Below the pieces are notes generated by a model. It was given only the letters and a program-made list of their open reading frames with translations, was not told the DNA's origin and ran no database searches. Below are positions 5,859 through 30,749 of a DNA stretch of 33,091 bases, in pieces. The position numbers and the translations under genes were made by a program. This stretch comes from Oscillospiraceae bacterium (GTDB taxonomy: Bacteria; Bacillota; Clostridia; Oscillospirales; Oscillospiraceae). Position 1 is the first letter of the stretch, and each line of letters starts with the position of its first letter. Location: the NCBI GenBank assembly GCA_017455685.1, contig JAFSZH010000055.1, forward strand, positions 1-33,091, read 5' to 3'.

Positions 5859-6729
5859 TGGTAAACTCCTCTTTTCTCATATCATACAGCGCGTCGGAGA
5901 GCGCCGCGAACTGCGCCAGGGAAAGCGCCTCGCCCCGGACGGTCACCGACAAGCCCAGCTCCTCCAGGGCCGCGTTCAGCGCCTCCCGGTCCAGGCCCGG
6001 AAATGCCGAGCGCAGGGCGTTGGACAGGGTCTTGCGCCGCTGATTGAAGGCGGCACGCACCGTCCGGAAGAAAAGCTCCTCGTCCTTCACCGGAACGGGC
6101 CGCTCTGCCAGCCGTTCCAGCCGAACCACCGCGCTGGTGACCTTTGGCTGGGGCACGAAGCAGATCGGCGGCACTTCGAACAGCAGCTCCGGCCGGGCGT
6201 ACCACTGCACCAGCAGGGTGAACGCCCCGTATTCCCCGGTGCCCGGTCGGGCGCAGAGCCGCTCCGCCACCTCCTTCTGCACCATGACCGTGACGCTCTC
6301 AAAGCAGCCCGCCTTCAGGAACGCAGTCAGCAGCGGCGTGGTCACGTTGTAGGGCAGGTTGGCGCAGACCTTCCATGGCCGGTCAGGGCCTTTTAGTTTA
6401 CATAATTTTTTCAGATCCGTTTTGCCCGCGTCCGCGAAGATCACTTCCACGTTGTCCCGGCCGGCGAGAGTCTCCTTCAAAACGCTCTCCAGCCGCCGGT
6501 CCAGCTCCAGAGAGACCACCTTGCCCGCCCGATCGGACAGCGCGGCTGTCAGACAGCCCACCCCGGGGCCCACCTCCAGCACGCAATCGTCCCGGGTCAG
6601 CCCGGCCTCCTCCGCGATGCGCTCCGGCACCCATGCAGCGGTGAGGAAGTTCTGGCCCAATGATTTGGAAAACCGGAAGCCGTGTCGTTCCAACAGCGCC
6701 GTCACTTCCGCGTAGTTCGTAAGGTCCAT
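5851..6729 (-). CDS. rsmA: 16S rRNA dimethyladenosine transferase RsmA (KsgA)
   Basis: A 292-residue SAM-dependent methyltransferase that dimethylates the two adjacent adenines in the loop of helix 45 of 16S rRNA during small-subunit assembly. Visible motifs: LGQNFL (25-29), the SAM-binding EVGPGVG (52-58), and the catalytic NLPY (124-127). The ATG at 6729 follows the trmD stop directly with no gap, implying translational coupling; hslO overlaps its end. Odd feature: codons 107-112 (KKLCKL) use AT-rich codons unlike the rest of the gene and encode, on this strand, a perfect copy of the 15-mer repeat described separately. Confidence 0.96.
   Translation of the reverse strand: MDLTNYAEVTALLERHGFRFSKSLGQNFLTAAWVPERIAEEAGLTRDDCVLEVGPGVGCLTAALSDRAGKVVSLELDRRLESVLKETLAGRDNVEVIFADAGKTDLKKLCKLKGPDRPWKVCANLPYNVTTPLLTAFLKAGCFESVTVMVQKEVAERLCARPGTGEYGAFTLLVQWYARPELLFEVPPICFVPQPKVTSAVVRLERLAERPVPVKDEELFFRTVRAAFNQRRKTLSNALRSAFPGLDREALNAALEELGLSVTVRGEALSLAQFAALSDALYDMRKEEFTNG
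6393..6407 (-). repeat. 15-mer repeat containing a dif-type XerD arm, copy A (inside rsmA)
   Basis: On the minus strand this reads AATTATGTAAACTAA. It is identical to 26806-26820 and 30735-30749. The inner TTATGTAAACT equals the XerD-binding arm of the Bacillus subtilis dif site. No recognisable XerC arm lies in the 17 bases before it. It is coded by rare AT-rich codons in a GC-rich gene. Confidence 0.6.
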
Positions 6730-8007
6730 TTACAGCACCTTCTCGAATGCCTGTCTGCGTGGATCGCTGCCCGGGCCAACCTCCACCAGCACGTTGCCCC
6801 GGTACTGGAAGCCCCGGCGCTTCAGCAGGGCCTTCATGGCCTCGTTGTGCCGGTGGGTGTCCACCCGCAGGTCGCTGATCCCCATGGCGAGGGTAAGGTC
6901 CTCGGCGGAGCGGAACATCCGGTCCGCCATGCCGGTGCCCCGGTACTCCGCGCCCACACAGCTCCGGTGGATCACACAATAGGGTCCCTCCCGCCGCCAT
7001 TTTCCGTCGGTGATGGCCGTGTAGCCCTCCTCCGGGCGGGACGACAGGCAGAAATATCCGGCCACCCGGCCTTCGTAGGTCATCACGTAGCCCTCACCGC
7101 GCTCCATGTCCTCCAGCACCTCCTGCCGGGCGGGGTAATCTCCCTGCCACTGGTCCACCCGGTGCCTGCGAAGGTAATTCCGCGCCTGCCGGAACAGCAG
7201 CTCCACGGCCTCCGCGTCCTCCTCCCGGACAGGGCGGCACTCCACCGCGCCGGTGAGCTGCAGACGGCTCCGGTCCTTGCGGATCTCGGCCTCCAGCTCC
7301 CGGTCCTCCGGGGAGAGCTCCGCCTTTTCCCACAGGTCGGGACGCTTGTCCATGGTGCGCTCCAGCATCTTCTTCCGCCGCCAGCGGCGGATCTGGGCGT
7401 CGTTGCCGCCGCGAAGTACCTCCGGCACCTCCCGGCCCTCCCAGGTCTCCGGCCGGGTGTACTGGGGGTATTCCAGCAGACCGTCCCAATGGCTCTCCCC
7501 GGTGAAGCATTCTTCATCGGAGAGCACCCCGGGGATCAGACGGCAGACCGCGTCGGTGACCGCCATGGCGGCGATCTCCCCGCCGGTGAGGACGAAGTCC
7601 CCCAGGGACAGCTCCTCGTCCACGCACTGCTCGATAAAGCGCTCGTCCACGCCCTCGTAATGGCCGCAGACCAGCACCAGATGGTCGTACTCCCCCGCCA
7701 GCCGCCGGGCGGCGGCCTGGTCAAAGGGCTTGCCCTGGGGCGAGAGATAGATCACCCGGCGACGGCGCTCCCCGGCGTCGGCACACACCGCGTCCAGGCA
7801 GCTTTTCAGCGGCTGGGCCATCATCACGCAGCCCCAGCCGCCGCCGTAGGGGTAATCGTCCACCTGCTGCTGTTTGTTGTCCGTATAGTCCCGGATCTGG
7901 ACGCAGCGGATATCCAGGATGCCCTTTTTTTCCGCCCGTCCCAGGATGCTGATCTTCAGCGAAGCGGCCACCGCCTCCGGGAACAAGGTCATTATGTCAA
8001 CTCGCAT
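6730..8007 (-). CDS. trmD: tRNA (guanine37-N1)-methyltransferase TrmD fused to a GNAT acetyltransferase
   Basis: A 425-residue two-domain protein. Residues 1 to about 248 are TrmD, which methylates G37 of tRNAs with SAM to prevent +1 frameshifting. The deep trefoil-knot SAM site is clear (SLGDFVLTGGE, 134-144; RLIPGVL, 156-162), as is GHYEGVDER (115-123). Residues about 255-425 are a GNAT-type N-acetyltransferase with the acetyl-CoA loop YRGTGMADRM (355-364) and a C-terminal RGFQYRG. Ordinary TrmD is about 240 residues, so this is a fusion. I start at ATG 8007 (MRVDIMTLF); an upstream TTG at 8022 lies inside rimM. The start is 1 base after the rimM stop. The substrate of the acetyltransferase part is unknown. 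Confidence 0.93.
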   Translation of the reverse strand: MRVDIMTLFPEAVAASLKISILGRAEKKGILDIRCVQIRDYTDNKQQQVDDYPYGGGWGCVMMAQPLKSCLDAVCADAGERRRRVIYLSPQGKPFDQAAARRLAGEYDHLVLVCGHYEGVDERFIEQCVDEELSLGDFVLTGGEIAAMAVTDAVCRLIPGVLSDEECFTGESHWDGLLEYPQYTRPETWEGREVPEVLRGGNDAQIRRWRRKKMLERTMDKRPDLWEKAELSPEDRELEAEIRKDRSRLQLTGAVECRPVREEDAEAVELLFRQARNYLRRHRVDQWQGDYPARQEVLEDMERGEGYVMTYEGRVAGYFCLSSRPEEGYTAITDGKWRREGPYCVIHRSCVGAEYRGTGMADRMFRSAEDLTLAMGISDLRVDTHRHNEAMKALLKRRGFQYRGNVLVEVGPGSDPRRQAFEKVL

Positions 8008-8008
8008 G

Positions 8009-8494
8009 TCACATTCCCTCAATGAGGTGCACCCGGATCACGTTTTCCCCCGGGTCGATGCCGAGGACGAACTCCGGCACGGCGGGGATGGTGTGCTCCG
8101 TCTCCCCCTGCACCACGTACACCTGCCCGGCGGGCAGATCCAGCACCTCGGTGAGCTTGCCCACCACGGCCCCGTTCTCATCCACCACGTCGCTGCCGAT
8201 GAGATCCGCGATAAAGTAGCGGCCCTCCGGCAGTCTGGCGTCCTCCCGGGCGAAGTATGCCACCTTGTTTTTCAGCAGCATGGCGCCGTTCACGTCCTCC
8301 ACGCCCTCAAAGCGGACGATTAGCATATCCTTGTGGACCCGGGCTGAGGCCACGGTCCGGGGTTTGGAATCGATATAAAGTGTTTTGAAGTCCTTGAGAA
8401 ACTCCGCGCTGTCGCACCAGGGCTGGAGCTTGACTTCCCCCCGGATGCCGAAGGTGTTCACGATCTTGCCGGCTTCCAGAAACGGCTGCTTCAT
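8009..8494 (-). CDS. rimM: Ribosome maturation factor RimM
   Basis: A 161-residue protein that binds S19 and assists maturation of the 30S head. The N-terminal RimM beta-barrel begins with the typical EAGKIVNTFGIRGEVK stretch (7-22); the PRC-barrel C-terminal half includes LIGSDVVDENG and VLDLPAGQVYVV. Length is normal. It sits between khpA and trmD, the usual Firmicutes order, and its stop is separated from the trmD ATG by a single base. AGGTTACC-type spacing before the ATG gives a moderate ribosome binding site (GGAGG about 10 bases upstream). Confidence 0.96.
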   Translation of the reverse strand: MKQPFLEAGKIVNTFGIRGEVKLQPWCDSAEFLKDFKTLYIDSKPRTVASARVHKDMLIVRFEGVEDVNGAMLLKNKVAYFAREDARLPEGRYFIADLIGSDVVDENGAVVGKLTEVLDLPAGQVYVVQGETEHTIPAVPEFVLGIDPGENVIRVHLIEGM

Positions 8495-8516
8495 ACGGTA
8501 ACCTCCAAATAGCTCG

Positions 8517-8545
8517 CAGGGGCGGGGACCCGGTCCCCGCCCCTG
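8517..8545 (-). other. GC-rich inverted repeat between khpA and rimM
   Basis: Arms of 14 bases (8517-8530 and 8532-8545) are perfectly complementary around one central base. No T run follows on the minus strand, so it is not a standard terminator. It could set the rimM-trmD-rsmA-hslO message level by RNA processing or partial attenuation. Confidence 0.55.
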
Positions 8546-8551
8546 TTTAGG

Positions 8552-8782
8552 TCAGTCGAGGATCTCGACGGACACCTTTTTGCCCTCTTTCTGGGCGACG
8601 GCCTTCATCAGCGTACGGATCTCCTTGACGACCCGACCCTGACGGCCGATGACCTTGCCCATATCTCCCGCGGCGACCCGTACTTCAAAGACGGTTTCGC
8701 CTCCGGCTTCGCGCTCGGTCACAGAGACCTCGTCGGCTTTGTCCACGAGACTCTGCACAATGTAGGTCAACAGTTCCTTCAT
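8552..8782 (-). CDS. khpA: KH-domain RNA-binding protein KhpA
   Basis: A 76-residue single KH domain protein (YlqC family), normal length. The nucleic-acid-binding GxxG loop is present as GKVIGRQGRVVKEIR. KhpA pairs with KhpB (Jag/EloR) in Gram-positive bacteria and affects cell elongation and post-transcriptional control. It lies between rpsP and rimM, its usual place in Firmicutes. Confidence 0.95.
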   Translation of the reverse strand: MKELLTYIVQSLVDKADEVSVTEREAGGETVFEVRVAAGDMGKVIGRQGRVVKEIRTLMKAVAQKEGKKVSVEILD

Positions 8783-8802
8783 TATAATCGTGCCTCAGGC
8801 GA

Positions 8803-9039
8803 TCAGGCTTCGGCCTTCTTCAGCAGGGCGCGGACGGTCTCGGTGGGCTGGGCGCCGTTGGCGATCCAGTACTTGGCACGCTCCATGTCGATCTTCACGA
8901 AAGCAGGCTGAGCCAGGGGATCGTAGGTGCCGATCTCTTCGATGAAACGGCCGTCACGGGGAGAATGGCTGTCGGCAACGACGACGCGGTAGTAAGGAGC
9001 TTTCTTGGCACCCATGCGGCGCAGACGGATTTTGACCAT
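8803..9039 (-). CDS. rpsP: 30S ribosomal protein S16
   Basis: A 78-residue S16 with the standard start [18 protein letters not shown] and the [16 protein letters not shown] motif. The reading frame is open further upstream to 9087, but the ATG at 9039 has a proper ribosome binding site (GGAGG at 9052-9048) and matches the family's N-terminus. The 60 bases between ffh and rpsP are AT-rich and hold a weak imperfect hairpin (9069-9087), possibly affecting expression of the downstream genes; I do not call it a terminator. Confidence 0.97.
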
Positions 9040-9099
9040 GATTTTTTCCTCCAAATAGTAAAATATTTTTATTGCTTTTCGCAACAATAAACGATTTTT

Positions 9100-10437
9100 T
9101 CAGAAGCCGAAAGGCATGCCGCCCCGGCGCATACGCTTCATTTTCTTGCCGGAAAACTGCTTGGCCATGTTCTGCATCATCTCATACTGCTTGAGAAGCC
9201 GGTTCACGTCCACCACCGACACGCCCGCCCCGGCGGCGATCCGCTTTTTCCGGCTGGCGTTCAGCACCGCGGGGTTGTCCCGCTCCTGAGGGGTCATGGA
9301 CAGGATGATGGCCTCGGTGTGGGCCATGGCCTTTTCGTCGATCTGGGCGCCCCGGAGCGCTTTGGCATCCAGCCCGGGGATCATGCCCGCGATGTCCTCC
9401 AGCGAGCCCATGTCCTTCATGGACCGCATCTGGTCCAGATAGTCGGCCAGGGTAAAGCGGTTCTTTTTCAGCTTTTCCGCCATCTCCCGGGCCTTCTGCT
9501 CGTCAAAGCTGGCCTCGGCCTTCTCGATGAGCGTGAGCATGTCTCCCATGCCCAGGATCCGCCCGGCCATCCGGTCGGGATGGAAGACCTCGATGGCGTC
9601 CAGCTTTTCCCCGGTGCCGGCGAACTTGATGGGCTTGCCGGTGACCGCCCGGATGGACAGCGCCGCGCCGCCACGGGCGTCGCCGTCCAGCTTGGTGAGC
9701 ATCACGCCGGTGACGCCCAGCTCCGCGTCGAAGGCGGAGGCGGCGTTCACCGCGTCCTGGCCGATCATGGCGTCGATCACCAGTAGGATCTCCGCCGGGT
9801 CCACGGCGGCCTTGATGCGCCGGAGCTCGTCCATGAGCTGCTCGTCGATGTGCAGCCGTCCGGCGGTGTCCAGAAAGACAAGATCGTTGCCGTGGCGTCT
9901 GGCGTGCTCGACGGCGTGGACCGCGATCTCCACCGGGTCCCCCTGCCCCTCCTGGAACACGGGGATGTCCAGCTTTCTGCCCACGGTCTCTAGCTGCTCG
10001 ATGGCGGCGGGCCGGTACACGTCGCAGGCCGCCAGCAGAGGACGCTTGTTCTGGGTCTTGCGCATCAGCGCCGCCAGCTTGGCACCGTTGGTGGTCTTGC
10101 CCGCGCCCTGCAGGCCCACCAGCATCACCACGCTGGGGGACTTGGAGGAGATGTTCAGCTTCTGGTTTTCCCCGCCCATGAGGGCGCACAGCTCTTCATT
10201 GACGATCTTGATGACCATCTGGGCCGGGGACAGGGCCTCCAGCACCTCCGCGCCGGCGGCGCGCTCGCTGACGGTCTTGACAAAGTCCTTGACGACCTTG
10301 TAGCTGACGTCCGCTTCCAGCAGAGCCAGCCGCACCTCCCGCATGGCTTCCTTCACGTCCTGCTCGGAGAGGCGGCCCTTGCCGCGCAGGGTCTTAAAAA
10401 CGTTATTCAGTTTATCAGACAGGTTTTCAAATGCCAT
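9100..10437 (-). CDS. ffh: Signal recognition particle protein Ffh (SRP54)
   Basis: A 445-residue GTPase that with 4.5S/6S scRNA delivers nascent membrane and secreted proteins to FtsY. N-domain with ALLEADVSYKVVK (38-50); P-loop GLQGAGKTT (108-116); DTAGRLHIDEQLM around 190; TKLDGDARGGAALS around 250; then a methionine-rich M domain (about 300-445) with MIPGLDAK and a basic FSGKKMKRMRRGGMPFGF tail. Length is normal. Its start overlaps the end of ylxM by 11 bases, indicating coupling. rpsP follows 60 bases later. Confidence 0.97.
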   Translation of the reverse strand: MAFENLSDKLNNVFKTLRGKGRLSEQDVKEAMREVRLALLEADVSYKVVKDFVKTVSERAAGAEVLEALSPAQMVIKIVNEELCALMGGENQKLNISSKSPSVVMLVGLQGAGKTTNGAKLAALMRKTQNKRPLLAACDVYRPAAIEQLETVGRKLDIPVFQEGQGDPVEIAVHAVEHARRHGNDLVFLDTAGRLHIDEQLMDELRRIKAAVDPAEILLVIDAMIGQDAVNAASAFDAELGVTGVMLTKLDGDARGGAALSIRAVTGKPIKFAGTGEKLDAIEVFHPDRMAGRILGMGDMLTLIEKAEASFDEQKAREMAEKLKKNRFTLADYLDQMRSMKDMGSLEDIAGMIPGLDAKALRGAQIDEKAMAHTEAIILSMTPQERDNPAVLNASRKKRIAAGAGVSVVDVNRLLKQYEMMQNMAKQFSGKKMKRMRRGGMPFGF

Positions 10438-10813
10438 GTCGCAGCTCCTGTAGGTCCTCCCGGAGTTCCCGGGCCAGCGCCGCCGTCTCCCCGGAGGTCT
10501 CCGCCTGCAGCCGGGCGAGTTTTTCCTCCGCCCGGGCGATCACCGTCCGGGACCGGGCGAACCGGGCCACCAGGCCGGTCTTGTCCTCATAGCGGCGCAT
10601 GCTCTCCTCCGCACGGCGGATGATGTCCCACACGCCCTGCCGGGAGATCCCCTCCCCCATGGCGATTTCGGCCAGAGAGAGGTCCTCGTTATAGTGCAGG
10701 TCGAAGTATTCCTTCTGCTTGTCGGTCAGGAGCTCGCCGTAAAAGTCGAACAGCATGGTGCGAAACAACGCCGCGTCCATCTCCGGTGTACGGCTCTGCT
10801 CCGCTTCTGTCAT
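10427..10813 (-). CDS. ylxM: SRP-associated helix-turn-helix protein YlxM
   Basis: A 128-residue YlxM/p13 family protein, encoded next to ffh in most Firmicutes and in streptococci shown to modulate SRP. It has a sigma-factor-like HTH: TDKQKEYFDLHYNEDLSLAE followed by GISRQGVWDIIRRAE. The ATG at 10813 is preceded by AGGAGG and excludes a longer open frame to 10885 that would run through the promoter. It is the first gene of the eight-gene operon, 44 bases from the -10 box. Confidence 0.93.
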   Translation of the reverse strand: MTEAEQSRTPEMDAALFRTMLFDFYGELLTDKQKEYFDLHYNEDLSLAEIAMGEGISRQGVWDIIRRAEESMRRYEDKTGLVARFARSRTVIARAEEKLARLQAETSGETAALARELREDLQELRHGI

Positions 10814-10976: not shown

Positions 10977-13900
10977 ATGGGATCGACGTATATTCCTCTT
11001 GATAAACTCCCCGATCATGCCCGCCGCTATGCCCGCTCGCTGAGCGTGAACGGCACGGTGCCTGCCCGCTCCCTTCGCCGGGAGGGCCGGCGCGCCGCCG
11101 CCGTACTGCGGCGGCGGGAACAGGCGTATCAGCGAACCGCGGACGTCGCTCTGCCGGAGGCGGGGCGCTGGATGCTGGACAACGCCTGGTTGATCCGCCG
11201 GGAGTGCGACGCCGCTCTGGCCGCTCTGGGCTCCGGCGGCTCCCTCCGGGCCGCGGCGGGACAGGCTGTGGTCTTGCTTCTGTGCCGGGAGCTGCTGCGC
11301 TCCGGGGACGGAGAGCTGACGGAGGAGCGTCTGGGGGCGTTCCTCTCCGGTTTTCAGGCGCGCATTCCCCTTCTGCGGCGGGAGCTGGGGCTGCTGCCTG
11401 CGGCGCTGCGGCTGGCGATGATCGGGACCATGGCCTCGGAATATAGCCGAAAAGAGCCGGACGGGGACCGCTGCGGCGTGCTGTTCACCGCGCTTCGGCG
11501 GCTCTCCGCCATGGATCTGGGCGCGGCGCTGGAGGAAGCGGACAGTCTTGACCGGCTGCTCCGCTTCGACCCCGCCGGCGTCTATTCCCGGATGGACCGG
11601 GCCTCCCGGGCGTATTATCTGCGCCGGGTGGAGGCCCTTGCCCGGAAAAACCGCCTCTCGGAGACCTCCGTCGCGGAAAAGGCGCTGGATCTGGCTGCCA
11701 AAGGGGAAGACGAGTATACCCGGCACGTGGGGACCTACCTTCTGGACCGGCCGCTGGGCGAGCGGAGTCGGGAACGCCGTGGGACGGGCTACGCTGCGCT
11801 GAACGCCGTCCTGCCGCTTCTGCTTGCCGGGGCGCTGGGACTGCTCCTCCGATCCTCGGCGGCGTTTTTCCTGGCGCTGCTGCCCCTCTCCCAGCTGGTG
11901 AAGGAGACGGCGGACCGGGTGGCACTGGGGCTCACGCCTCCCTGTCAGCTGCCCCGGCTGGCGCTGAAAACCGGCGTGCCCCCGGAGGGGAAGACTCTGT
12001 GCGTGATCTCCGTGCTGCTATCCGGGGAGGCCGCCGCCGACAGGGCCCTCCGGCGCCTGGAGGAATTCCGAATGGCCTCCCGGGATTGCGGCGAGGGGCT
12101 GGCCCTGGGGCTGCTGTGCGACTTACCGGAGAGCCGGGAGATCCTGTCCACCGCAGATCAGGCCCTGCTGCTCCGGGTCAAGGCCGGGGCGGATGAGCTG
12201 AACCGGCGATATGACGGGGGCTTTTTCGTCTTCTCCCGGGAGCGGAGCTGGTCGGAGGATTCCCGCCGGTTCTCTCCCCGGGAGCGGAAACGGGGCGCCA
12301 TCCATGAGCTCTGCCGTCTGCTGGACGGGCAGAGCTCCGAACTGGAGCTGCTCTCCGGGGAGGCGGAAGCCCTTCAGGGCGCTGTCTACGTGCTGACGCT
12401 GGACGAGGACACCCGGCTGGAGCCGGGAGCGGCCCGGGCCATGATCGGCACGGCCCTCCACCCGCTGAACCGGCCTGTGGTCGAACCCGAACAGGGCCGG
12501 GTGGTGCAGAGCCATGGCGTGCTCCAGCCCCGGCTGGCCGTGGGGCTTTCCGACGCCAACAAAACGGGCTTCGCCCGGCTGTTCGCCCCACAAGGCGGCG
12601 GCGACCCTTACGGCTCCAACGCGGGAGAACTTTATATGGACCTCTTCCGCAGCGGCGGCTTTGCCGGGAAAGGGCTGATCCATATCCGTTCCTATCTGGA
12701 TTGCGCCGCGGACCGTCTGCCGGACAATCTGGTGCTGAGCCACGACGCTCTGGAGGGAGCTTATCTCCGTGGCGGGCTGATCAACGACGTGGAGCTCACC
12801 GACGGCTTCCCCGCCGGGGCGCGGAGCTGGCTCACCCGGCTGCACCGCTGGACCCGTGGGGACTGGCAGAACCTGCCCTGGGTCTTTTCCCCCGGGGCCC
12901 AGCTGCCGCTGATCGAGCGCTGGCGGCTGTGGGATTCCCTGCGCCGCTCGCTGCTGCCTCCCGCCCTGCTCTCGGCGCTGGCCGCCTGGTTCCTCCGGCC
13001 GGATGCCGGAACGATGGCCGCCGCGGTCACGGCGGCGCTGTGCCTGCTCTCCCCTCTATTCAACGCGCTGGCGGATGCCGCTGCCCGGGGAAGACTCCTC
13101 CCGCTGCGGTTCCACTGTGCGGTCCTGTCCGGTCCCCGGGGCGAGGTGATGCGCTGTATCGCCCGCTTCATCCTGCTGCCCCAGGAGGCCTGGACCTGCT
13201 TCTCCGCCGCGGTCAGCGCCCTGTGGAGGATGACCGTCACCCACAAAAACCTGCTCCAATGGACCACCGCACAGCAGGACGAAGCCCGGGGAAAGGAGGG
13301 GCCCGGGGTGCTCTATCGGTCCATGTGGTTCTCCCCGGCGGCAGGCTGCGTGCTGCTTTCCGCCTCTCCCCTGCCCGCGGGTCTGGCCGCGGGGCTGCTG
13401 TGGCTGGCAGCCCCGCTCCTTTTCCATGCCCTGAGCCGGAAGAAAACGGGGAAGCCCGCCCTGCCTCCGGAGGACCGGGACTGGCTGCTGCGCCGGTGTG
13501 CGGAGATCTGGCGGTATTTCCGGGACAACTGCGTGCCGGAGGACCACTTCCTCCCGCCGGACAACGTGCAGTTCTCCCCGCCGGCGGAAAAGGCCGGGCG
13601 GATCAGCCCCACCAATCTGGGGCTCTCCCTGCTCAGCGCCCTGTGCGCGCTGAAGCTGGGCGTGGCCAAACGGCAGGAGGCCCTGGGGCTGTGCGAAAAC
13701 CTGCTCTCCGCGGCCGAAAGGATGCCCAAATGGAAGGGTCACCTCTATAACTGGACGGACACCGCCACCCTGCAGCCGCTGCAGCCGGGGTATATCTCCA
13801 CGGTGGACAGCGGGAATCTGGCCGGATGCCTGCTGGCCGGGGCTGCGGCCCTCCGGGAACAGGGGGCCCACGCTCTGGCCGCGCGCTGCGACGCCCTGCG

Positions 13901-16900
13901 GCTGGCCATGGACTTCCGGCCGCTGTACGACGAGCGCCGGGATTTCTTCCGCATCGGACTCATTCCCGGCGGGCAGGCTTCCGAGAGCTGGTACGATCTG
14001 ATGGAGAGCGAGGAGCGGCTCACCGGCTATATCGCCGTGGCCTCGGGCCAGGCGCCCCGGAAGCACTGGAAACGGCTGAGCCGGGCCCAGGTGGGTCTCC
14101 GGAGTTACCGGGGCATGGTCAGCTGGAGCGGCACCATGTTCGAGTATCTGATGCCGGAGCTGCTGCTGCCGCTGTACGGCGGCTCCCATCTGGCCGAGAG
14201 CTCCCGTTTCGCCGTGTACGCCCAGAGGAAAACGCCCGCGGGACCCGACGGCCTCTGGGGCGTTTCGGAGAGCGCCGTGGCCACGCTGGACGCGGGGATG
14301 CACTACCGCTACAGGGCCAATGGCTGCGCCGCCCTGTCCCTGAGCCGGGACGGGCAGAGCCGTGTGATCGCCCCGTACGGTAGCTTCCTCACGCTGATGG
14401 TCAGCCCCCGGGCGGCCATGCAGAACCTGCGGAAGCTGGAACGGCCGGAGTATATGGGCCCCTACGGTTTCTGGGAAGCCGTGGACTTCACCCCCGGCCG
14501 GGGCGGAGAAAACGGCGCTCCCGTGCAGTGCGCCATGGTCCACCACCTGGGCATGAGTCTGGTCGCCATGACCAACGTTCTGTGCGACCAGGCGCCCCGG
14601 CGCTGGTTTATGTCCGATCCTGCCATGGCCGCCTACGCCGGTTTGCTGCAGGAAAAGATCCCCCTGGACGGCCGGGTGATCCGGACGGTCCGGCGGGAAC
14701 GGTCCGTCCCCGCCGGGCATCTCTCCCGGACGGAAGAGCCCCGGCGCCGGGGACAGGGCACGAACTATCTCTTTCCCCGGGCGCAGGCCCTGTCCAACGG
14801 GATCTATCATCTGCTCGTCACCGAGTCCGGCGTCAGCCGGGCCCGGTGGGGAGATTTGGAGGTCTACCGGTCCGACGCCGATCTGCCCGGCCGTTCCCAC
14901 GGCGCAGAGCTTTTCCTCCGGCAGGGAGAAAAGCTCGTTTCCCTGCTGCCCCGGCCCGGGGAGCCGGGAGATTTCTCCTGGGAGTTTTCCGGCGATCAGG
15001 CGGTGCTGACCGGGACGCTCCACGGCCTCCGGTGGACGGTCTCGGCGGCAGTATCCGTCTCCCACGCGGGAGAGGTGCGCCGCGTCGTTCTCCACCGGGA
15101 GGATAGCGCCCCGGAAGCGGAGCTTTTCTTCGCTCTGGAGCCAGCGCTTCTGCCCGAGCGGGACCGGCGGGCCCATCCCTCCTTTGCCCGGCTGGGTATC
15201 TCCACGCGGGAAAAGGACGGGGTCCTTCTCCTGCGCCGTCTGGCAAGAGGCGGGCAGAGAGAGCGCTTTCTCGCTCTGGCTGTCAGCCGGAAGGCGGCGT
15301 ATTCCTCCGACTTCCAAACCTTTCCGGGCCGGGGCGGCGGAAAAACTTTCGCGTCCAACACCGGCTGGCAGAGCGAATGCCTGCTTTGCGCCCGGGTGGA
15401 CCTTCCCCGGGGCGAGGCGGACAATCTCGTCACCTTCGCCCTCTGTGCGGATCAGTCGGAGGACCGGGCCGTTGCCGGGGCCGGAGCCATGCTCCGGGAG
15501 GAGACGTTTTATTCCATGACCTCCGCCTTTGCCGCCCGGTGGGAACTCACCCGGGAGGACGCGGACGCCGCCATGGAGCTGCTGCGCTGTCTGCTCCGGC
15601 CGGAGGTGCCCCGGGAGGCCCGGGCGCTCCCCGCCTGCCGCCGGGAAGCCCTGTGGGCGCTGGGGATCTCCGGGGACCTGCCCATCCACGCCGTGGAATG
15701 TACCCGGGAGCTGGCGGTGACCGCGTCGCTTGGGCACCTGCGGCGCTATGCCCTGCTGCGCCAGTGCGGCGTGCGTTTCGATCTGGTGTTTCTCACCCCG
15801 GATGAGGGAGAGTATTTCGATGCCTGCCGGAAAGCCATCCGGGAGGCCATGGAGATGATGGAGCTGGGAGCGCTGTCGGGCAGCCCCGGCGGGGTGTATT
15901 TTGCCTCTCTGGAACGGGATCGGGAGACGCTACTCTCTTCGGCCGCTGTGTGGAACAGCGGAGAGACCGTCCCACCCCTCCCCGAGCGGACAGAAACCGG
16001 ATATATCGCCCCTCCCGCCCCCGTCTCCCGGGGCGGGAAGCCCGCGTGGCGCTTTGAGGAGAACCTTTCCTTTACCTTCTCCCCCGGAACGGCCCTGCCG
16101 GGTCGGTGCTGGAGCAACATGCTCTTCGGCGGAGAACTGGGCTGGGCCGCCGCCGAGTGCGGCACCGGGGCGCTGTGGTATCGCAATGCCCGGGAGTGCC
16201 CCCTGCTCCCCTGGCGGGGCGACCCGCTCTCCACGACGGGGCCGGAACTGCTCTGGGCGGAGATCGACGGGCAGGCCGTGTCCTTCTTTGCCGATGGCCT
16301 GTGCGAGGATGAAACCGTCACCTATGGCTTCGGCAAGGCGGTGTGGCGCAAGACGTTTCACGGCGCGTCGCTGCGGCTGACCGCTTTTCTCCCCGTGGAC
16401 AAAAGCGTACGCTGCTTCCTGCTGGAGAGCAGCCGCCCGGTGCGGGTGCGCTGGCTGGCGCCGCTGCAGCTTTCCGCTGAGCCTGAGGACGCCCGAAGCT
16501 GCTTCATCACCCGGCAGGGCAACGCCCTCACAGCGGAAAACCCCCGCTGCGCATTTACCGGCGTGCGCCTTACGGCCCGATGCTCCCGGCTCTGGGAAAA
16601 CTGGGCCACGGACACGGCGGCGTCCCTCTTCGGAACGGCCGAACAGACTCCCCGGAGCGGAGATCCCGGCTTTTGCGGGGAGTTCACACTGTCCGGAAAG
16701 GCCGTGCTGCTCTGCGGCACGGAGGACGCGCCGGAGCTCCTCTCCCCGGAGCGGGCCGAGGCCGCCCTCGCCAGTACCGAAAATGTCTGGCGCGCCAGAG
16801 TCTCCCGGCTCCGGGGCCGGGGTATGGAACCGGAGCTGCTCCCCCTGCTCAACGGCTGGGCCGCTTATCAGGCCCTGAGCTGCCGCATTCTTGGTCGCTC

Positions 16901-17639
16901 CGGCGCGTATCAGAGCGGCGGGGCCGTGGGCTTCCGGGATCAGTTGCAAGATTATGTAAACTTAATGCCGCTGGACCCGGCCGCTTGCCGCCGGCATATC
17001 CTCACCTGCTGCGCCCATCAGTTCACCGAGGGGGACGTGCAGCACTGGTGGCATCCTGGGGAGGGGCTGACTGACAAGGGCGTGCGCACCCGGTGCAGCG
17101 ACGATCTGCTGTGGCTGCCCTGGGCGGCCTGCGAATACGCCGACGCCACGGGAGACTCTTCGATTTGGGAGGAAACCGTTCCGTTTCTGTCCTCTCCGCC
17201 TCTGGCCGAGGGGGAGCGGAGCCGCTACGAGCTGCCGCAGCTCGCCGGGGAGCGCGGCACGGTGCTGGAGCACTGCCGCCGGGCGGTGGGGCTGGTCCTC
17301 GCCCGGGGCGTGGGTCCCCACGGCCTGCTGAAGATCGGCGGAGGGGACTGGAACGACAGCTTCGACGCCATGGGGGACCGAGCTGAGAGCGTATGGCTCA
17401 CCTGGTTCGCCTCGACGGTATGCCTGTGGCTCTCGGAGCGACTGGGTCCGCCGGACGGTCTGGAACGGACGAAATACGCGGAAATGTCCCGGGTCCTGGG
17501 GCTCTCGGCCAACGAGGCCTGGGCGGAGGATCGTTATCTGCGGGGCTGGTACGGCGACGGGACGCCTCTGGGCGCTCCCTCCGGCCGGGCCTGCCGGGTG
17601 GACGGCGTGGCCCAGAGCTTTGCTGCCTTCTGTCCCTAG
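10977..17639 (+). CDS. Cyclic beta-1,2-glucan synthase-like protein (GT84 + glycoamylase-like + GH94), ended early by TAG
   Basis: A 2220-residue open frame from an ATG with AGGAG at 10966-10970. Order: a hydrophobic pair (about 272-310); a GT84 domain with TLDEDTRL (about 474), LSHDALEGAYLRGG (about 587) and RLHRWTRGDWQ (about 621); membrane segments (about 655-700 and 790-820); a glycoamylase-like domain (about 855-1215) with GLIPGG, SWSGTMFEYLMP and VHHLGMSLVA; beta-supersandwich modules; and a GH94 phosphorylase-type domain whose FRDQLQD places the catalytic Asp near 1988. Family members initiate, elongate, cyclise and trim beta-1,2-glucan at the inner membrane. The open frame stops at TAG 17637-17639 inside the conserved GH94 AQS(F/W)A region; the same frame then encodes the missing C-terminus to 18143 (2388 codons plus stop in total). 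It is either a recent nonsense mutant or a readthrough product. Cyclic product is inferred from family only. Confidence 0.85.
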   Translation: MGSTYIPLDKLPDHARRYARSLSVNGTVPARSLRREGRRAAAVLRRREQAYQRTADVALPEAGRWMLDNAWLIRRECDAALAALGSGGSLRAAAGQAVVLLLCRELLRSGDGELTEERLGAFLSGFQARIPLLRRELGLLPAALRLAMIGTMASEYSRKEPDGDRCGVLFTALRRLSAMDLGAALEEADSLDRLLRFDPAGVYSRMDRASRAYYLRRVEALARKNRLSETSVAEKALDLAAKGEDEYTRHVGTYLLDRPLGERSRERRGTGYAALNAVLPLLLAGALGLLLRSSAAFFLALLPLSQLVKETADRVALGLTPPCQLPRLALKTGVPPEGKTLCVISVLLSGEAAADRALRRLEEFRMASRDCGEGLALGLLCDLPESREILSTADQALLLRVKAGADELNRRYDGGFFVFSRERSWSEDSRRFSPRERKRGAIHELCRLLDGQSSELELLSGEAEALQGAVYVLTLDEDTRLEPGAARAMIGTALHPLNRPVVEPEQGRVVQSHGVLQPRLAVGLSDANKTGFARLFAPQGGGDPYGSNAGELYMDLFRSGGFAGKGLIHIRSYLDCAADRLPDNLVLSHDALEGAYLRGGLINDVELTDGFPAGARSWLTRLHRWTRGDWQNLPWVFSPGAQLPLIERWRLWDSLRRSLLPPALLSALAAWFLRPDAGTMAAAVTAALCLLSPLFNALADAAARGRLLPLRFHCAVLSGPRGEVMRCIARFILLPQEAWTCFSAAVSALWRMTVTHKNLLQWTTAQQDEARGKEGPGVLYRSMWFSPAAGCVLLSASPLPAGLAAGLLWLAAPLLFHALSRKKTGKPALPPEDRDWLLRRCAEIWRYFRDNCVPEDHFLPPDNVQFSPPAEKAGRISPTNLGLSLLSALCALKLGVAKRQEALGLCENLLSAAERMPKWKGHLYNWTDTATLQPLQPGYISTVDSGNLAGCLLAGAAALREQGAHALAARCDALRLAMDFRPLYDERRDFFRIGLIPGGQASESWYDLMESEERLTGYIAVASGQAPRKHWKRLSRAQVGLRSYRGMVSWSGTMFEYLMPELLLPLYGGSHLAESSRFAVYAQRKTPAGPDGLWGVSESAVATLDAGMHYRYRANGCAALSLSRDGQSRVIAPYGSFLTLMVSPRAAMQNLRKLERPEYMGPYGFWEAVDFTPGRGGENGAPVQCAMVHHLGMSLVAMTNVLCDQAPRRWFMSDPAMAAYAGLLQEKIPLDGRVIRTVRRERSVPAGHLSRTEEPRRRGQGTNYLFPRAQALSNGIYHLLVTESGVSRARWGDLEVYRSDADLPGRSHGAELFLRQGEKLVSLLPRPGEPGDFSWEFSGDQAVLTGTLHGLRWTVSAAVSVSHAGEVRRVVLHREDSAPEAELFFALEPALLPERDRRAHPSFARLGISTREKDGVLLLRRLARGGQRERFLALAVSRKAAYSSDFQTFPGRGGGKTFASNTGWQSECLLCARVDLPRGEADNLVTFALCADQSEDRAVAGAGAMLREETFYSMTSAFAARWELTREDADAAMELLRCLLRPEVPREARALPACRREALWALGISGDLPIHAVECTRELAVTASLGHLRRYALLRQCGVRFDLVFLTPDEGEYFDACRKAIREAMEMMELGALSGSPGGVYFASLERDRETLLSSAAVWNSGETVPPLPERTETGYIAPPAPVSRGGKPAWRFEENLSFTFSPGTALPGRCWSNMLFGGELGWAAAECGTGALWYRNARECPLLPWRGDPLSTTGPELLWAEIDGQAVSFFADGLCEDETVTYGFGKAVWRKTFHGASLRLTAFLPVDKSVRCFLLESSRPVRVRWLAPLQLSAEPEDARSCFITRQGNALTAENPRCAFTGVRLTARCSRLWENWATDTAASLFGTAEQTPRSGDPGFCGEFTLSGKAVLLCGTEDAPELLSPERAEAALASTENVWRARVSRLRGRGMEPELLPLLNGWAAYQALSCRILGRSGAYQSGGAVGFRDQLQDYVNLMPLDPAACRRHILTCCAHQFTEGDVQHWWHPGEGLTDKGVRTRCSDDLLWLPWAACEYADATGDSSIWEETVPFLSSPPLAEGERSRYELPQLAGERGTVLEHCRRAVGLVLARGVGPHGLLKIGGGDWNDSFDAMGDRAESVWLTWFASTVCLWLSERLGPPDGLERTKYAEMSRVLGLSANEAWAEDRYLRGWYGDGTPLGAPSGRACRVDGVAQSFAAFCP
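16951..16962 (+). repeat. 12-base core of the XerD-arm repeat, copy D (inside the GH94 domain)
   Basis: ATTATGTAAACT, identical to bases 2-13 of the 15-mer copies A, B and C; the following bases are TAA instead of AA. It is coded as D-Y-V-N-L with AT-rich codons in a strongly GC-biased gene, right after the catalytic FRDQLQD motif. Confidence 0.5.
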
Positions 17640-26489: not shown

Positions 26490-26527
26490 TCCGCCCATCC
26501 CCAAAGCAGGAAGGGAGGTCGAAGCCA

Positions 26528-26815
26528 TTGGAACAGCTGCAGCGCATTGAGGAAATGGAAAGCGCCATGCGCCGTGTCTCCGCCGCGCTGGAGAAAATCG
26601 GCCCCGCGCTGGACGCCTATCTGGAGGTCCAGAGCGAGCTCCGAGCTCTGACGGAATACTACGAAAGCCCGCTCTGGCGGGAGGATTTCGAGGCGGATGA
26701 GAACGGACTCCTGCCCCGGGACCTGCGGCGGGGCGTTCTGTCCGAGGACGGGCTGTATGATCTGCTGCGAGAAAACGACGAGCTCCGCGAAAAGCTGCAA
26801 AAAGTAATTATGTAA
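26528..26815 (+). CDS. DUF4298 family protein
   Basis: A 95-residue soluble helical protein of the DUF4298 type, recognisable from ALTEYYESPLWREDFEADE, GLLPRDLRRGVLSEDGLYDLL. The function of the family is unknown. The start is TTG at 26528, chosen because GGGAGG (26512-26517) lies at the correct distance and no ATG fits before the conserved N-terminal helix. It follows the His-rich gene by 38 bases, so the two probably share a transcript. Its last codons and TAA stop (26813-26815) lie inside a perfect copy of the XerD-arm 15-mer, which explains the AT-rich ending V-I-M. Confidence 0.85.
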   Translation: MEQLQRIEEMESAMRRVSAALEKIGPALDAYLEVQSELRALTEYYESPLWREDFEADENGLLPRDLRRGVLSEDGLYDLLRENDELREKLQKVIM

Positions 26816-26820
26816 ACTAA
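26806..26820 (+). repeat. 15-mer repeat containing a dif-type XerD arm, copy B
   Basis: AATTATGTAAACTAA, identical to 30735-30749 and to the minus strand of 6393-6407. It overlaps the stop codon of the DUF4298 gene. No recognisable XerC arm lies in the 17 bases before it. Confidence 0.65.
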
Positions 26821-26827
26821 ATTGACA

Positions 26828-26862
26828 AATCGGGAGCGCCGGATCGTCCAGCGCTCCCGATT
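26828..26862. terminator. Bidirectional terminator between the DUF4298 gene and the pilus operon
   Basis: A perfect 12-bp stem (26828-26839 with 26851-26862) around an 11-base loop, between convergent genes. T-rich sequence follows on both sides but is not a pure run. Confidence 0.7.
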
Positions 26863-26937
26863 GTTAAATGAAGCATTCGCAGCACAAGAAGCAATACCGG
26901 CAAGCCTCTTCAAGATGTTGCCAGGTTTACTCTTTTT

Positions 26938-27622
26938 TCACTCACTTTTCCCTTTTTTACGGAGAGCCTGACCGGAAAACAGCAGGATCAGCACAGCGCT
27001 CCCCAGCATCAACAACTCGTACAGTCCGATCGGGGTCGCATCCCCGGTCTCCGGCGGCGTGGAGGTCGGGCCTTTGTAAACAGGGTCCAGCTCCACGAAG
27101 TTTTCCTTGATGCCGCTGTCGTCCTGGGCAGTCAGTATCCGCATCGTCAGCTTGGGTCCGTTATCCGTATCGTTTGCGATATAAAAGTATACTGTGTACT
27201 GACGGTGCTCAAAGGTATACCGGTCCGCATGGGCTTTCTGGCCGTCAGTGACCAGGTCACCCCGGATCAGATACTCATACGCCCCGGGTTTCGTGAACGT
27301 GAAGTGCAGTTCGCCCTGCAGGTCGTATACCGTGTTCGCGCCCGACGTAACGCCTGCGCCGTCGTTGCCCTGGAAGGAAAAGACACCGTTGGCGTCCGCC
27401 TCCGCAGGCAGAGCGCCGTCTTCCGTCTTCGACTCGATGATGTAATGAAACAAAGCGTCAACGGCCTTGTCGTTGGTCGTATAGATGTGTTTGTAGGGCA
27501 GCACCACCTCCAGCGGCTCATACTCCGCCCGCTGCAAATGCGCCGGCACTCAAAGCCAGCGCCGCCAGAAAAATAGCCAGCGCCGCTGCTCCGGTCCGAA
27601 CCCTCCGCATCATTTCGTTCAT
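26938..27622 (-). CDS. FctB-like minor pilin / pilus anchor, apparent +1 frameshift after the signal peptide
   Basis: Two frames make one protein. ATG 27622 begins a typical signal peptide (MNEMMRRVRTGAAALAIF..., ending SAGAFA) but that frame stops at 27518. The mature part (AEYEPLEVVLPYKHIYTT...) is in the next frame, open from an unlikely GTG at 27549 without a ribosome binding site. Removing one G from the GGG at 27530-27528 joins them as AFAA-AEYEP, and the whole span (685 bases) is one base over a multiple of three. The mature protein has a Spy0128-like pilin domain (FTFTKPGAYEYLIRG, YTVYFYIAN) and a sorting signal: TPPETG, hydrophobic helix, RKKGK. It is the last gene of the pilus operon, in the position of fctB. 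The frameshift may be real, phase-variable or a sequencing error. Confidence 0.8.
27518..27622 (-). other. Out-of-frame signal-peptide segment of the FctB-like gene
   Basis: Thirty-four codons with a Met-Arg-Arg start, a hydrophobic core and an AFA cleavage-type end, then TGA (27520-27518). It is 50 bases from the sortase stop, at the expected place for the start of the last pilus gene. Confidence 0.75.
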
Positions 27623-27672
27623 GCCTTTCTTCCTTTCCCCCTCAGAGGAGTATTGGTTTCCAATCGTATTCT

Positions 27673-28566
27673 TTACAGGATCGTCAAAAGGATCACCAGC
27701 GCCGCAAGTGCGAAGATCCAGACGATCACGGGTACGGCGTTCAATCCGTCGGTCGTCAGCCGGTCCGTTCCGCTGCCCCTTCGAACGATCTCCACGGGCT
27801 CCTCTGGTTCCTGTAGGTGAAGCTCTTCCGTCTCCCGGCCGATCAGAAGATACCGGCCGTTGGTGATCTCCGTGGTGCAGGTGGACAGGAGGTAATACCG
27901 GTCGCCGGCGCTCAGGTCCGTGTCTCTCCAGGTGACCGCCAGCTCCCGCGCGTCGTCCAGAAATTGCAGGATCTCCTCTTCCGTGCTGATGCCTATGGCA
28001 TACAGATCCTGGTCGTACGCATCTGTGAGCACCAGTGCGAAAAACTCCAGTCCGTGGTTCTGTCCGTCGTAAAACAGGTTCCCGTATGCGTGCTCTTCCA
28101 GAAACCGCTGGTCGGTGTAATCCCCCAGGCTGCCGAACATGAGCTTTTTTTCCATGTAATGGCCGTACAGGATGTTGAGCTGATCTGTAAAATCGGCGCT
28201 GTTCCGGTAATCCAGAAAAATGGCGCCCGACAGGGTGTACTCTCCCAGCGCGTTGGTGTTGACGTATTTATCGTTGTTGTCCGCCCGGGCGACCGGGTAG
28301 TCGATAGGAGTGTCGTTCACCGTCAGCCAGGCCACGACCTCAGGGTTAATAGCCCGCAGCTCGTCAAAGCTGATGGAATCATTCTCCGCAGGGCGGTAAA
28401 CGGTATAGTTGTCGGCCTCCGCCGCCCGGTACACAAGTCCGGATTCCCAGATGGAATACGCGCCGAACAAAAGCGCAAAAGACAGGATAACGTACAAAAC
28501 GAGGTCCGTTATCCTGTCGAGCGCTTTAAGGATGAATCTGCAGGTTTTTATCAACGCTATTTCCAT
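27673..28566 (-). CDS. Class B-type pilus sortase
   Basis: A 297-residue membrane transpeptidase. Catalytic residues fit sortase: His136 (ILYGHYM), Cys230 (YLLSTCTTE) and Arg238 (NGRYLLIG). The pattern DTPIDYPV, GAIFLDYRNSADF and the LSTC motif with its long preceding region point to class B, as in streptococcal FCT pilus sortases. There is one membrane segment at about 21-43 and a second at about 277-297; a C-terminal anchor is more usual in class C pilus sortases. It lies between the two pilin genes and should polymerise the FctA-like protein and attach the FctB-like protein. ATG 28566 is preceded by a GGAG site. Confidence 0.92.
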   Translation of the reverse strand: MEIALIKTCRFILKALDRITDLVLYVILSFALLFGAYSIWESGLVYRAAEADNYTVYRPAENDSISFDELRAINPEVVAWLTVNDTPIDYPVARADNNDKYVNTNALGEYTLSGAIFLDYRNSADFTDQLNILYGHYMEKKLMFGSLGDYTDQRFLEEHAYGNLFYDGQNHGLEFFALVLTDAYDQDLYAIGISTEEEILQFLDDARELAVTWRDTDLSAGDRYYLLSTCTTEITNGRYLLIGRETEELHLQEPEEPVEIVRRGSGTDRLTTDGLNAVPVIVWIFALAALVILLTIL

Positions 28567-28630
28567 CCCGTTGCTCCGCCGCTATCGTGGTTTGACACGG
28601 CAGCATCCTTTCAATGAAAAAGGACAGGTT

Positions 28631-29866
28631 TCAGTCCTTAGCCTGGTTTCTTCTCTTCAGGATCAGGAAGAAAAAGCCGAGAATGGCTACGCCGGCCAGA
28701 ACGATATAGGGCAGGTTGTCAATGATAATGCCGGTGGGAGGCGTATGCTCCAGCATGTTGTCGATGGTCACCAGCTGACCGGCGGCGGTGATCACAGTGT
28801 CAGGTCCGTCAACCGTTCTGTCACCTTCCACGTACCCTGTGTCTTCCGTAGCGACAAAGCCCGTGACCTTGCTCTTATAGGGGCTGATCTGCTCCTCTTC
28901 CACGCTGATGAGCAGCGTGCCGGCAGGCAGCTTGGTGAACACGATGGTGTCCTCGTGCGCCAGATCGGCTTCGACGTAATACTGTCTGTCCGCGGTCCCC
29001 GCCGTGACCGTCCCTTCGGCCACAGCGATATCGGATGCAGACGCCGTAGTGGGGATCTCGATGGTCGCCTTGACGGCAAACTCCGCGGTCTTGTCAGAAT
29101 AGTCGCCGCTGATGGTCTTCTGGATCGTCAGCACGCCGTCCGTGGTGTTGTTGATGACCTCGGTGTATGTGTTGTTGAAGCGGAAGCCGTTGCTGATCTG
29201 GAATTCGCCGCCGTTCTCCACCGTATTGGTCTGAATGGTGGGGTCGACCTTTACGCCGTCCGCATACACGTTCTCCGTGCCCGTTTCAACAGCCGTCCAG
29301 GTGGTGATGCCGGAGTAAGCCAGGCCGTCGATGCCGGAGTTGGTCACCAGGACGTGAACGTTGTACATCTGCGTGCTCACGGTCAGCGTCTTCTGCACGG
29401 TGTCGGGGGCCGTGCCCACGGTGGTGTCAAAGCCCGTCGTGGTCTCCTTCACGGTATATACCCATTCACCCGCGTGGGGGAAATAGGGGTTGGTGTCGGA
29501 GGAGGACGTGCCGGGCGCAGAGCCGAAGATTTCGCTGAAGGTCAGGGTGCCCACGGCGATATCGCTCTTGCGCGTGGCGGAATTGTCCGTAGTTCCCACG
29601 GTAATGGTCTTGCTGGCGATGGCCGGAGCATCGTCCTTGTCCGCGGTGCCGGTATCCTGCGCCGTGAACGAGAAGGTAAAGGTGCTCACGGAAGAAATGT
29701 CCACGCCCTCGGCCACGTGTAGGATCTTGCTGAGGCCGGCGTTGCTGAAGTCGGCGGACGGAGTAAGGTTATTTACGGTCGGAACCGTAGCCAGAGCAGG
29801 CACCGCCCCCAGGGCGATCATCAGGATCAGTACCAGCGCCAGGGAAAGGATTCTTTTCGTTTTCAT
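28631..29866 (-). CDS. FctA-like (Spy0128-type) backbone pilin
   Basis: A 411-residue secreted protein. Signal peptide 1-26 (ends VPALA); C-terminal sorting signal TPPTG (375-379), hydrophobic helix and KRRNQAKD. Between them are two beta-rich domains; YTVKETTTGFDT and YNVHVLV in the first and VLTIQKTISGDY, IVFTKLPAGTLLISVEEE in the second match Spy0128/SpaA-type pilin domains, which usually contain Lys-Asn isopeptide bonds with a conserved Glu. Order signal peptidase-like, this gene, sortase, FctB-like is that of the streptococcal FCT region. GGAGG precedes ATG 29866. Very low cysteine content and Thr/Ser-rich composition fit a secreted fibre. I infer it is the polymerised shaft. Confidence 0.88.
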   Translation of the reverse strand: MKTKRILSLALVLILMIALGAVPALATVPTVNNLTPSADFSNAGLSKILHVAEGVDISSVSTFTFSFTAQDTGTADKDDAPAIASKTITVGTTDNSATRKSDIAVGTLTFSEIFGSAPGTSSSDTNPYFPHAGEWVYTVKETTTGFDTTVGTAPDTVQKTLTVSTQMYNVHVLVTNSGIDGLAYSGITTWTAVETGTENVYADGVKVDPTIQTNTVENGGEFQISNGFRFNNTYTEVINNTTDGVLTIQKTISGDYSDKTAEFAVKATIEIPTTASASDIAVAEGTVTAGTADRQYYVEADLAHEDTIVFTKLPAGTLLISVEEEQISPYKSKVTGFVATEDTGYVEGDRTVDGPDTVITAAGQLVTIDNMLEHTPPTGIIIDNLPYIVLAGVAILGFFFLILKRRNQAKD

Positions 29867-29958
29867 GGGTTAATCCTCCAGTGGATGCTTTATGGTTTTA
29901 TTTCTTTTCTTTATTGATCTGCCGGTCGGGTGCGAAAAAGCGCAGCCCGATACGATTC

Positions 29959-30507
29959 TCAAAGATTGCGCCGGCGGAACAGGCCGATCACCCGTCCGTA
30001 GATATCTTCCTTGTCCACGCAACCGAAGATCCGGCTGTCCGTAACGTGCTCCCGGTTGTCCCCCAGGACGAACACCTGTCCCTCCGGCACCGTCAGCGGG
30101 AAGGTGACGCCCTCCTCGAATCGGGTGGTCTCCCCTCTCGCGTAGGATTCCTGGACCAGAGCGCCGTTGATCACAAGGCCGTTCTTTGTGATGTCCACTT
30201 CATCCCCGGCGACGGCGACCACACGCTCCAGCAGTTCTTTTCCCTGGTAGCGGACGACCACGACTTCTTCCGCAGAAAAGGAATCCGTGATCCTGTAATA
30301 CAGTACCAGATCCCCGTCCCGGAACGCAGGCTGCATCCCGATGCTCGCCGTCCTCGTAAGGCCGAAAACGTAGCCGAACAGGATGATCATAACGACGGCG
30401 AAAATGGCGACCTTAAGCAGGAAAGACACCAGATCCATCAGCAAAGACCGGAATTGTTTTTTCTTTTCAGGCTTCGCCCCGGCTGTCGCGCTCATGTCTT
30501 TGGCCAT
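29959..30507 (-). CDS. SipA-type signal peptidase I homologue lacking both catalytic residues
   Basis: A 182-residue S26 family protein with one membrane helix (about 24-48). Family motifs are present: MQPAFRDGDLVLYYR, RVVAVAGDEVDI, GQVFVLGDNREHVTDSR. But the residue before MxP, the nucleophile Ser in active enzymes, is Gly57 (SIGMQP), and the general-base Lys before RVV is Glu94 (LLERVV). The Ser/Lys dyad is thus gone, as in SipA of Streptococcus pyogenes FCT loci, where the protein assists pilus assembly without peptidase activity. Most annotation pipelines would name it signal peptidase I (lepB). It is the first gene of the pilus operon behind a consensus promoter. The assignment as an assembly factor is inference from the missing dyad and gene order. 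Confidence 0.88.
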   Translation of the reverse strand: MAKDMSATAGAKPEKKKQFRSLLMDLVSFLLKVAIFAVVMIILFGYVFGLTRTASIGMQPAFRDGDLVLYYRITDSFSAEEVVVVRYQGKELLERVVAVAGDEVDITKNGLVINGALVQESYARGETTRFEEGVTFPLTVPEGQVFVLGDNREHVTDSRIFGCVDKEDIYGRVIGLFRRRNL

Positions 30508-30608
30508 CCTGTAATTTCCTTTCCTTCCCGGTCCGGGATCACGATCCCGACCCTGTAAGGCCGCTGTCCGTGGAAGAGTGTAAAAAACAAACCATTATTA
30601 ATTAATAT

Positions 30609-30637
30609 ATTATAGAAAAAAATACAAACGAAGTCAA
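30609..30637 (-). promoter_or_regulatory. Promoter of the pilus operon
   Basis: Minus strand TTGACT (30637-30632), a T-rich 17-base spacer, TATAAT (30614-30609). The leader is about 95 bases and contains an inverted repeat, CGGGATC (30534-30540) and GATCCCG (30543-30549). AT-rich flanks stand out from the GC-rich surroundings. Confidence 0.88.
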
Positions 30638-30678
30638 TGATGATTTACATATTATTCTTGATACATTTCCTTCCAGAC

Positions 30679-30706
30679 AAAAAAAGGACCGCTTTTCAAG
30701 CGGTCC
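30679..30706 (-). terminator. Terminator of the YczE-MBL transcript
   Basis: A 9-bp stem (30686-30694 with 30698-30706), 3-base loop and seven Ts on the minus strand (30685-30679), about 70 bases after the hydrolase stop and just before the pilus promoter. Confidence 0.88.
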
Positions 30707-30734
30707 AGCGTTTTTTCAGAAAATGCGATCAATA

Positions 30735-30749
30735 AATTATGTAAACTAA
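30735..30749 (+). repeat. 15-mer repeat containing a dif-type XerD arm, copy C (intergenic)
   Basis: AATTATGTAAACTAA, perfect copy. It sits between the hydrolase stop (30775) and its terminator. The flanks are AT-rich. No recognisable XerC arm lies in the 17 bases before it. Confidence 0.65.

Follow-up and report, generated by a model that had tools for sequence, protein, structure and literature searches.

Karaboja et al. are said to have described, in 2021, the XDS of Bacillus subtilis, XerD-only sites at which SMC is unloaded close to the terminus. Unloading sites of this kind, known from B. subtilis, have a parallel in Staphylococcus aureus, and the matS sites of Escherichia coli are palindromic and bound by MatP. 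Excerpts of three papers (PMC8357415, PMC12322038, PMC10945525) report SMC release at the XDS of B. subtilis. Here we describe a short motif, TTATGT[AC]AAC[TC], that recurs in a whole contig of 33,091 nucleotides (JAFSZH010000055.1; the window, labelled G000:C24) from the draft genome of an Oscillospiraceae bacterium (G000; 72% complete, 85 contigs) and elsewhere in that genome and its relatives (G001 to G290; contigs are labelled C and extracted loci L). The motif is enriched, is selected at the level of the DNA, is clustered, lacks a second arm, and forms a conserved array upstream of xerD. Half-sites that recur under selection, in clusters and before xerD are probably docking sites for XerD. 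The fuller reading, in which the 11-mer is a XerD half-site used both at the xerD promoter and at XerD-only sites on the chromosome, the latter most likely releasing SMC, we regard as an evenly balanced call on the sequence evidence.

A selected and clustered motif without a second arm

The motif was counted as a 15-mer, a 12-mer, the 10-mer TTATGTMAAC and the 11-mer TTATGT[AC]AAC[TC], with the reversed pattern as control. Alignment of 37 sites showed that the information is confined to A-TTATGT[AC]AAC[TC], with TTATGT[AC]AAC[TC] as the core, and that nothing prominent stands at the position expected of a XerC arm; no flank was common to these sites. The core is identical at 11 of 11 positions to the XerD arm of B. 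subtilis dif, whose letters are given in an excerpt of PMC3025954, and the form TTATGTAAACT is not palindromic. The alternation of A and C at position 7 is also found among known dif arms, for example TTATGTCAAGT of F. alni, in the same excerpt. The earlier note on this DNA, which had recognized a XerD arm unaccompanied by a XerC arm, was therefore right on both counts. A canonical dif lies at the terminus and has two arms of 11 bp, inverted relative to each other, with a 6-bp centre between them; it was rejected as the identity of the scattered sites, which have no second arm; a dif pattern of the B. subtilis type, at up to 3 mismatches, was found in none of 60 relatives.

Two-armed dif-like sites were observed in two relatives. 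Locus L154 (G101:C4) carries five of them between positions 1149 and 1865, of the type AGTTTACAGTA-ATATAA-TTATGTAAACT and about 170 bp apart, within a 170-bp tandem repeat of 3.3 copies, and L155 (G090, same genus) has one similar site.

In G000 the 10-mer is present in 40 copies, against 2 of the reversed pattern, and in the relative G004 in 55, against 6. The 12-mer has 13 exact copies in G000 and 33 within one mismatch (5 reversed), and all three G000 copies of the 15-mer lie in the window. A simple gene caller placed 38 of the G000 sites, 18 between genes and 20 within them. When the 435 predicted genes were shuffled 200 times among synonymous codons, a mean of 0.635 and a maximum of 4 genic copies were obtained, compared to the 19 present, and the reversed pattern gave 0; the ratio is inflated because many of the contigs had been chosen for carrying sites, and the expectation scaled by length to the genome is about 2.4. 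The motif in genes is thus selected as DNA, as the earlier note had supposed.

The sites are also clustered. Five contigs that make up 12% of the bases carry 29 of the 40 G000 sites, and on these dense contigs exact copies outnumber one-mismatch copies by 28 to 5, the opposite of chance expectation. Contig C72 holds 8 sites in 10.85 kb, a density unreached in 20,000 uniform placements. The unevenness across contigs was matched in none of 20,000 simulations for G000, and had a P of 0.0003 in G004 and of 0.027 in G182. Comparison with parts of 12 G004 contigs showed that the dense contigs C1, C12, C59 and C72 have genes in common with the site-rich G004 contigs C23 and C26. Contigs C66 and C67 of G000, with one site each, match the same two, and the counterpart of the window contig is G004 C22, not itself dense in sites.

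Two local groupings were also seen. At L181 (G000:C73), three tandem motif-like units 13 bp apart occupy positions 3453-3490, between two genes and not near xerD. In G004:C1, five sites lie within 2.3 kb (42.3-44.6 kb; L190), in an AT-richer stretch beside an open reading frame (ORF) recognized by eye as serine-recombinase-like.

The array upstream of xerD

The xerD product of G000 scores above the XerD equivalog cut-off (TIGR02225; 347 versus 330 bits). Of 59 genomes with a match we took the 30 best and inspected their xerD loci, 9 from the genus and 21 from other genera; 29 loci had upstream DNA, G007 having only 125 bp. The motif was found upstream of xerD within one mismatch at 28 of the 29 testable loci, and exactly at 20. 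Over the 112 kb of these loci there were 81 motif matches, 79 of them upstream, against 5 of the reversed pattern.

Alignment of 21 xerD loci revealed a common plan: a site A is followed after about 113 bp by a pair B, direct half-sites spaced 13-14 bp, and after a further 113 bp or so by an inverted site C that directly follows a conserved TTGAT[AT]-17-TATATT promoter. No dif core of 28 to 31 bp lies beside xerD in this alignment, and CAATATATTG palindromes are found between A and B (L292-L321). A same-strand pair 108-118 bp apart is present in 15 of the 29 loci, the close pair in 13, and the inverted site, 112-115 bp further on, in 10, so that the full A-B-C plan is not universal. Between the promoter and xerD lies an ORF that is weakly SpoIIM-like in G097 (below the cut-off) and without an NCBIfam match in G000. 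Among genomes outside the family, those with a XerD ortholog hold more 12-mers than those without (10 versus 13 genomes; P 0.019, uncorrected for relatedness). The conserved array supports a link between motif and xerD and names a likely protein, and XerD itself would be expected to bind it.

We propose that TTATGT[AC]AAC[TC] is bound by the XerD recombinase of the family. On the half-site array, XerD would control the operon that ends in xerD, by occluding or looping the promoter. At the clustered single sites it would act without recombination, because the partner arm is absent, and by analogy with the XDS of B. subtilis it would there most likely release SMC (condensin) complexes loaded at ParB-parS. 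A bolder extension, which we put forward tentatively and consider rather unlikely, is a family-wide code for chromosome zoning: dozens of exact half-sites, selected even within genes, would mark large non-origin regions in which SMC is stripped off or halted by XerD, and these sites would also set the XerD supply, in a looped array of about 113-bp spacing at its own promoter, near the terminus.

Sites in the window, in relatives and along the chromosome

The window contains five half-sites; these and the two host genes named in the text are as follows.

6393..6407, minus strand: XerD-arm half-site in rsmA, TTA TGT AAA CTA (L C K L); perfect 15-mer; the G004 counterpart is without the site
7991..8002, plus strand: fifth half-site, ATTATGTCAACT, close to the 5' end of an opposite-strand tRNA m1G methyltransferase (trmD-type) ORF; not kept in G004
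16951..16962, plus strand: half-site in the GH94 gene, GAT TAT GTA AAC TTA (D Y V N L); 12-mer; kept in G004
26806..26820, plus strand: half-site across the stop codon of a DUF4298 ORF (26528-26815); perfect 15-mer
30735..30749, plus strand: half-site, intergenic; perfect 15-mer
5851..6729, minus strand: rsmA, host of one site; TIGR00755, 260 bits against a cut-off of 171
10977..17639, plus strand: gene for a GH94 / glucoamylase-type large protein, host of one site; PF17167, PF06165, PF10091

Four of these sites, three perfect 15-mers and one 12-mer, had been reported in the earlier note, and both their positions and their contexts (rsmA, GH94, the stop codon of the DUF4298 ORF, one intergenic) were confirmed. 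The site at 7991 had been overlooked; its sequence is the commonest one-mismatch form in G000 (7 of 20). The earlier estimate of far less than one match per 33 kb proved sound, since 0.05 matches are expected and 4 are present, a number reached in none of 100 dinucleotide shuffles. The codons at the genic copies are indeed unusual: in the predicted genes TTA and CTA account for 0.9% and 1.0% of leucine codons, and GTA for 7.9% of valine codons. The suggestion that the sites are unusually dense here is weakened: with 40 sites in the genome, 13% of uniform placements already give 5 in one or another stretch of 33 kb, so that the count in the window, taken alone, is unexceptional, and C72 and C59 are denser.

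Alignment to G004 was possible for three window sites. The one in GH94 is kept there, within a stretch of 76% identity, whereas those in rsmA and at 7991 are not; absence from the same positions in a close relative, which the earlier note held would count against its proposal, was thus found for part of the sites. The top named matches of the RsmA product come from Butyricicoccus, at 57% identity. Beyond the family, one 12-mer was found in 1.34 Mb around rsmA from 80 named loci (many of them Lachnospiraceae), and that copy lies outside rsmA. All nine genus genomes searched contain the 12-mer, in 2 to 21 copies, with 0 or 1 reversed. It was present in 44 of 60 relatives overall and in 39 of 60 in a partly overlapping draw of at least 99% completeness, and a 14-mer was found in 103 of 287 family genomes. 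Enrichment throughout the searched genus and in many genera of the family agrees with the suggestion that these sites form an Oscillospiraceae set.

Position relative to the terminus cannot be placed in the G000 draft; it was followed in relatives. Sites resembling parS at no more than one mismatch were found in 15 of 16 genomes searched, G001 having two-mismatch matches only, and G000 has an exact parS on contig C50. The single contig of G044 begins at a DnaA-like ORF, recognized by eye; its skew is positive over most of the sequence up to 1.505 Mb and negative over most of that beyond 1.545 Mb, apart from stretches near 0-0.15 and 2.6 Mb. Its xerD is at 1.546 Mb, adjoined by a second Xer gene (C1 1545573-1547252). 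In G182 the skew flips at about 137-150 kb of C1, with a second Xer-like gene at 136046-136984 of that contig, xerD at 182 kb and the array at 183.5 kb. In G097, where the cumulative skew is noisy from 2.64 Mb on and peaks at about 3.02-3.06 Mb, the xerD array lies at 2.977 Mb and the second Xer-like gene occupies C1 3043960-3044874. Thus G044, G182 and G097 all have xerD or the second Xer gene close to the skew flip, which places Xer genes by the terminus in the three genomes.

The scattered sites were counted without those at the xerD promoter (a pair in G097, one in G182) and without three G097 sites on C2 and C3. In G182 a 458-kb contig is free of them (P 0.0007) and the terminus contig carries 13 of the 34 (P 0.03), and in G097 10 of 12 lie within 0.9 Mb of the flip (P 0.048 for mean distance). 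These data give moderate support for placement near the terminus in the two relatives.

Several observations on position stand apart from this. In a number of other genomes some 10 kb separate xerD from a second Xer-type gene. In G097:C1, between 2.15 and 3.43 Mb, 9 of 10 scattered sites share one strand, whichever side of the skew flip they lie on, unlike a replication-polar signal, although about half of them may be chance. Motif copies also occur 0.65-1.4 kb from parS-like sites, at G004:C11:16911, G124:C28:6814 and G028:C9:18731.

Weighing the explanations

A number of results weigh against the proposal that XerD binds these sites and releases SMC near the terminus. The positional tests in G182 and G097 were picked post hoc, after the data had been inspected. 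The whole of G097 has 17 sites versus 8 reversed, so that chance may account for about half of them. In G000 and G004 the density of sites showed no relation to the distance from the origin of the G097 orthologs (rho -0.005; 55 loci, gene order scrambled), and in G290 the spread of sites over contigs is compatible with an even one (P 0.38). Thus, of the expectations in the earlier note, placement near the terminus is moderately supported in G182 and G097 but not by synteny or by G290, and an even distribution, which would have spoken against it, is contradicted in G000 and G004 but not in G290. Only 7 of the 38 placed G000 sites could be aligned to the parts of G004 that were covered, and 3 of the 7 are kept. 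Concerning xerD, G005 is the sole testable locus with no motif upstream of the gene, and the xerD contigs C83 (G000) and C4 (G004) are not the densest in sites. G020 has no XerD match and yet three 12-mers, and G029 and G035, with weak XerD matches only, have three and two.

Some of these results would be accommodated if the motif were a XerD site whose scattered copies served to titrate XerD, to fold the chromosome locally over most of its non-origin part, or to control transcription, which we consider unlikely though worth serious attention. The sites are not clearly confined to the terminus, as the synteny comparison and G290 indicate, and their strongest conserved use is the promoter-like array at xerD. 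However, 20 of the 38 placed sites are in genes, away from promoters, and the exactness of the copies and their selection as DNA exceed what titration needs.

It is less probable still, and in our view doubtful, that the motif is recognized by a different DNA-binding protein, either a regulator or a nucleoid protein, with xerD also under its control, and that the match of the motif to the XerD arm is coincidental or due to a shared ancestry of targets. The upstream array is the sole tie of the motif to xerD and also contains the CAATATATTG palindromes, and the copies in G020 exist without a XerD match. Identity at all 11 positions to the B. subtilis arm argues for XerD, as do the A/C variation shared with dif arms such as that of F. 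alni and the higher copy number in genomes with a XerD ortholog.

The repeat array of G101 and the G004 C1 cluster beside a serine-recombinase-like ORF would fit a mobile or repeat element that had left its ends or footprints, but this is very improbable: a match to a transposon end, named in the earlier note as a possible refutation, was looked for, and the 37 aligned sites have no sequence in common beyond the motif. Chance, base composition, AT bias or codon bias has a negligible probability, as shuffles and reversed controls in G000 were near zero and refute chance there, although in G097 the reversed control amounts to half of the count.

Among the readings weighed, we favor XerD half-sites at the xerD promoter and XerD-only sites on the chromosome. 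Taken by itself, the sequence points to a larger, selected version of XerD-only sites, in a group known mostly from drafts, and, if true, a recombinase would act as a distributed organiser of the chromosome. Among the papers listed by full-text searches, with few subscription papers covered, titles and abstract openings mentioned neither a control of xerD by way of XerD sites nor the presence of these sites in the group.

Compared to described systems, the sites share with dif and XerCD dimer resolution the XerD arm of B. subtilis dif, according to excerpts of PMC3025954 and PMC5357621, but they are scattered and have no second arm, and hence no recombination core. XerS/difSL, in the excerpt of PMC5357621, likewise has a Xer gene beside DNA sites that it probably binds, whereas the xerD array consists of direct half-sites and a promoter instead of a dif core. 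With matS/MatP of E. coli, as outlined in an excerpt of PMC10945525, there is a likeness in scattered short sites that exclude, or in the present case would exclude, an SMC-type complex from a chromosome region; unlike matS, the present motif is not a palindrome. The closest resemblance is to the XDS: half of a dif without the XerC arm, in multiple copies, in a genome with XerD (TIGR02225) and parS (no search for SMC genes was made). The difference lies in the dozens of exact copies and the array upstream of xerD found here, and a role in SMC release would be shared with the XDS by analogy.

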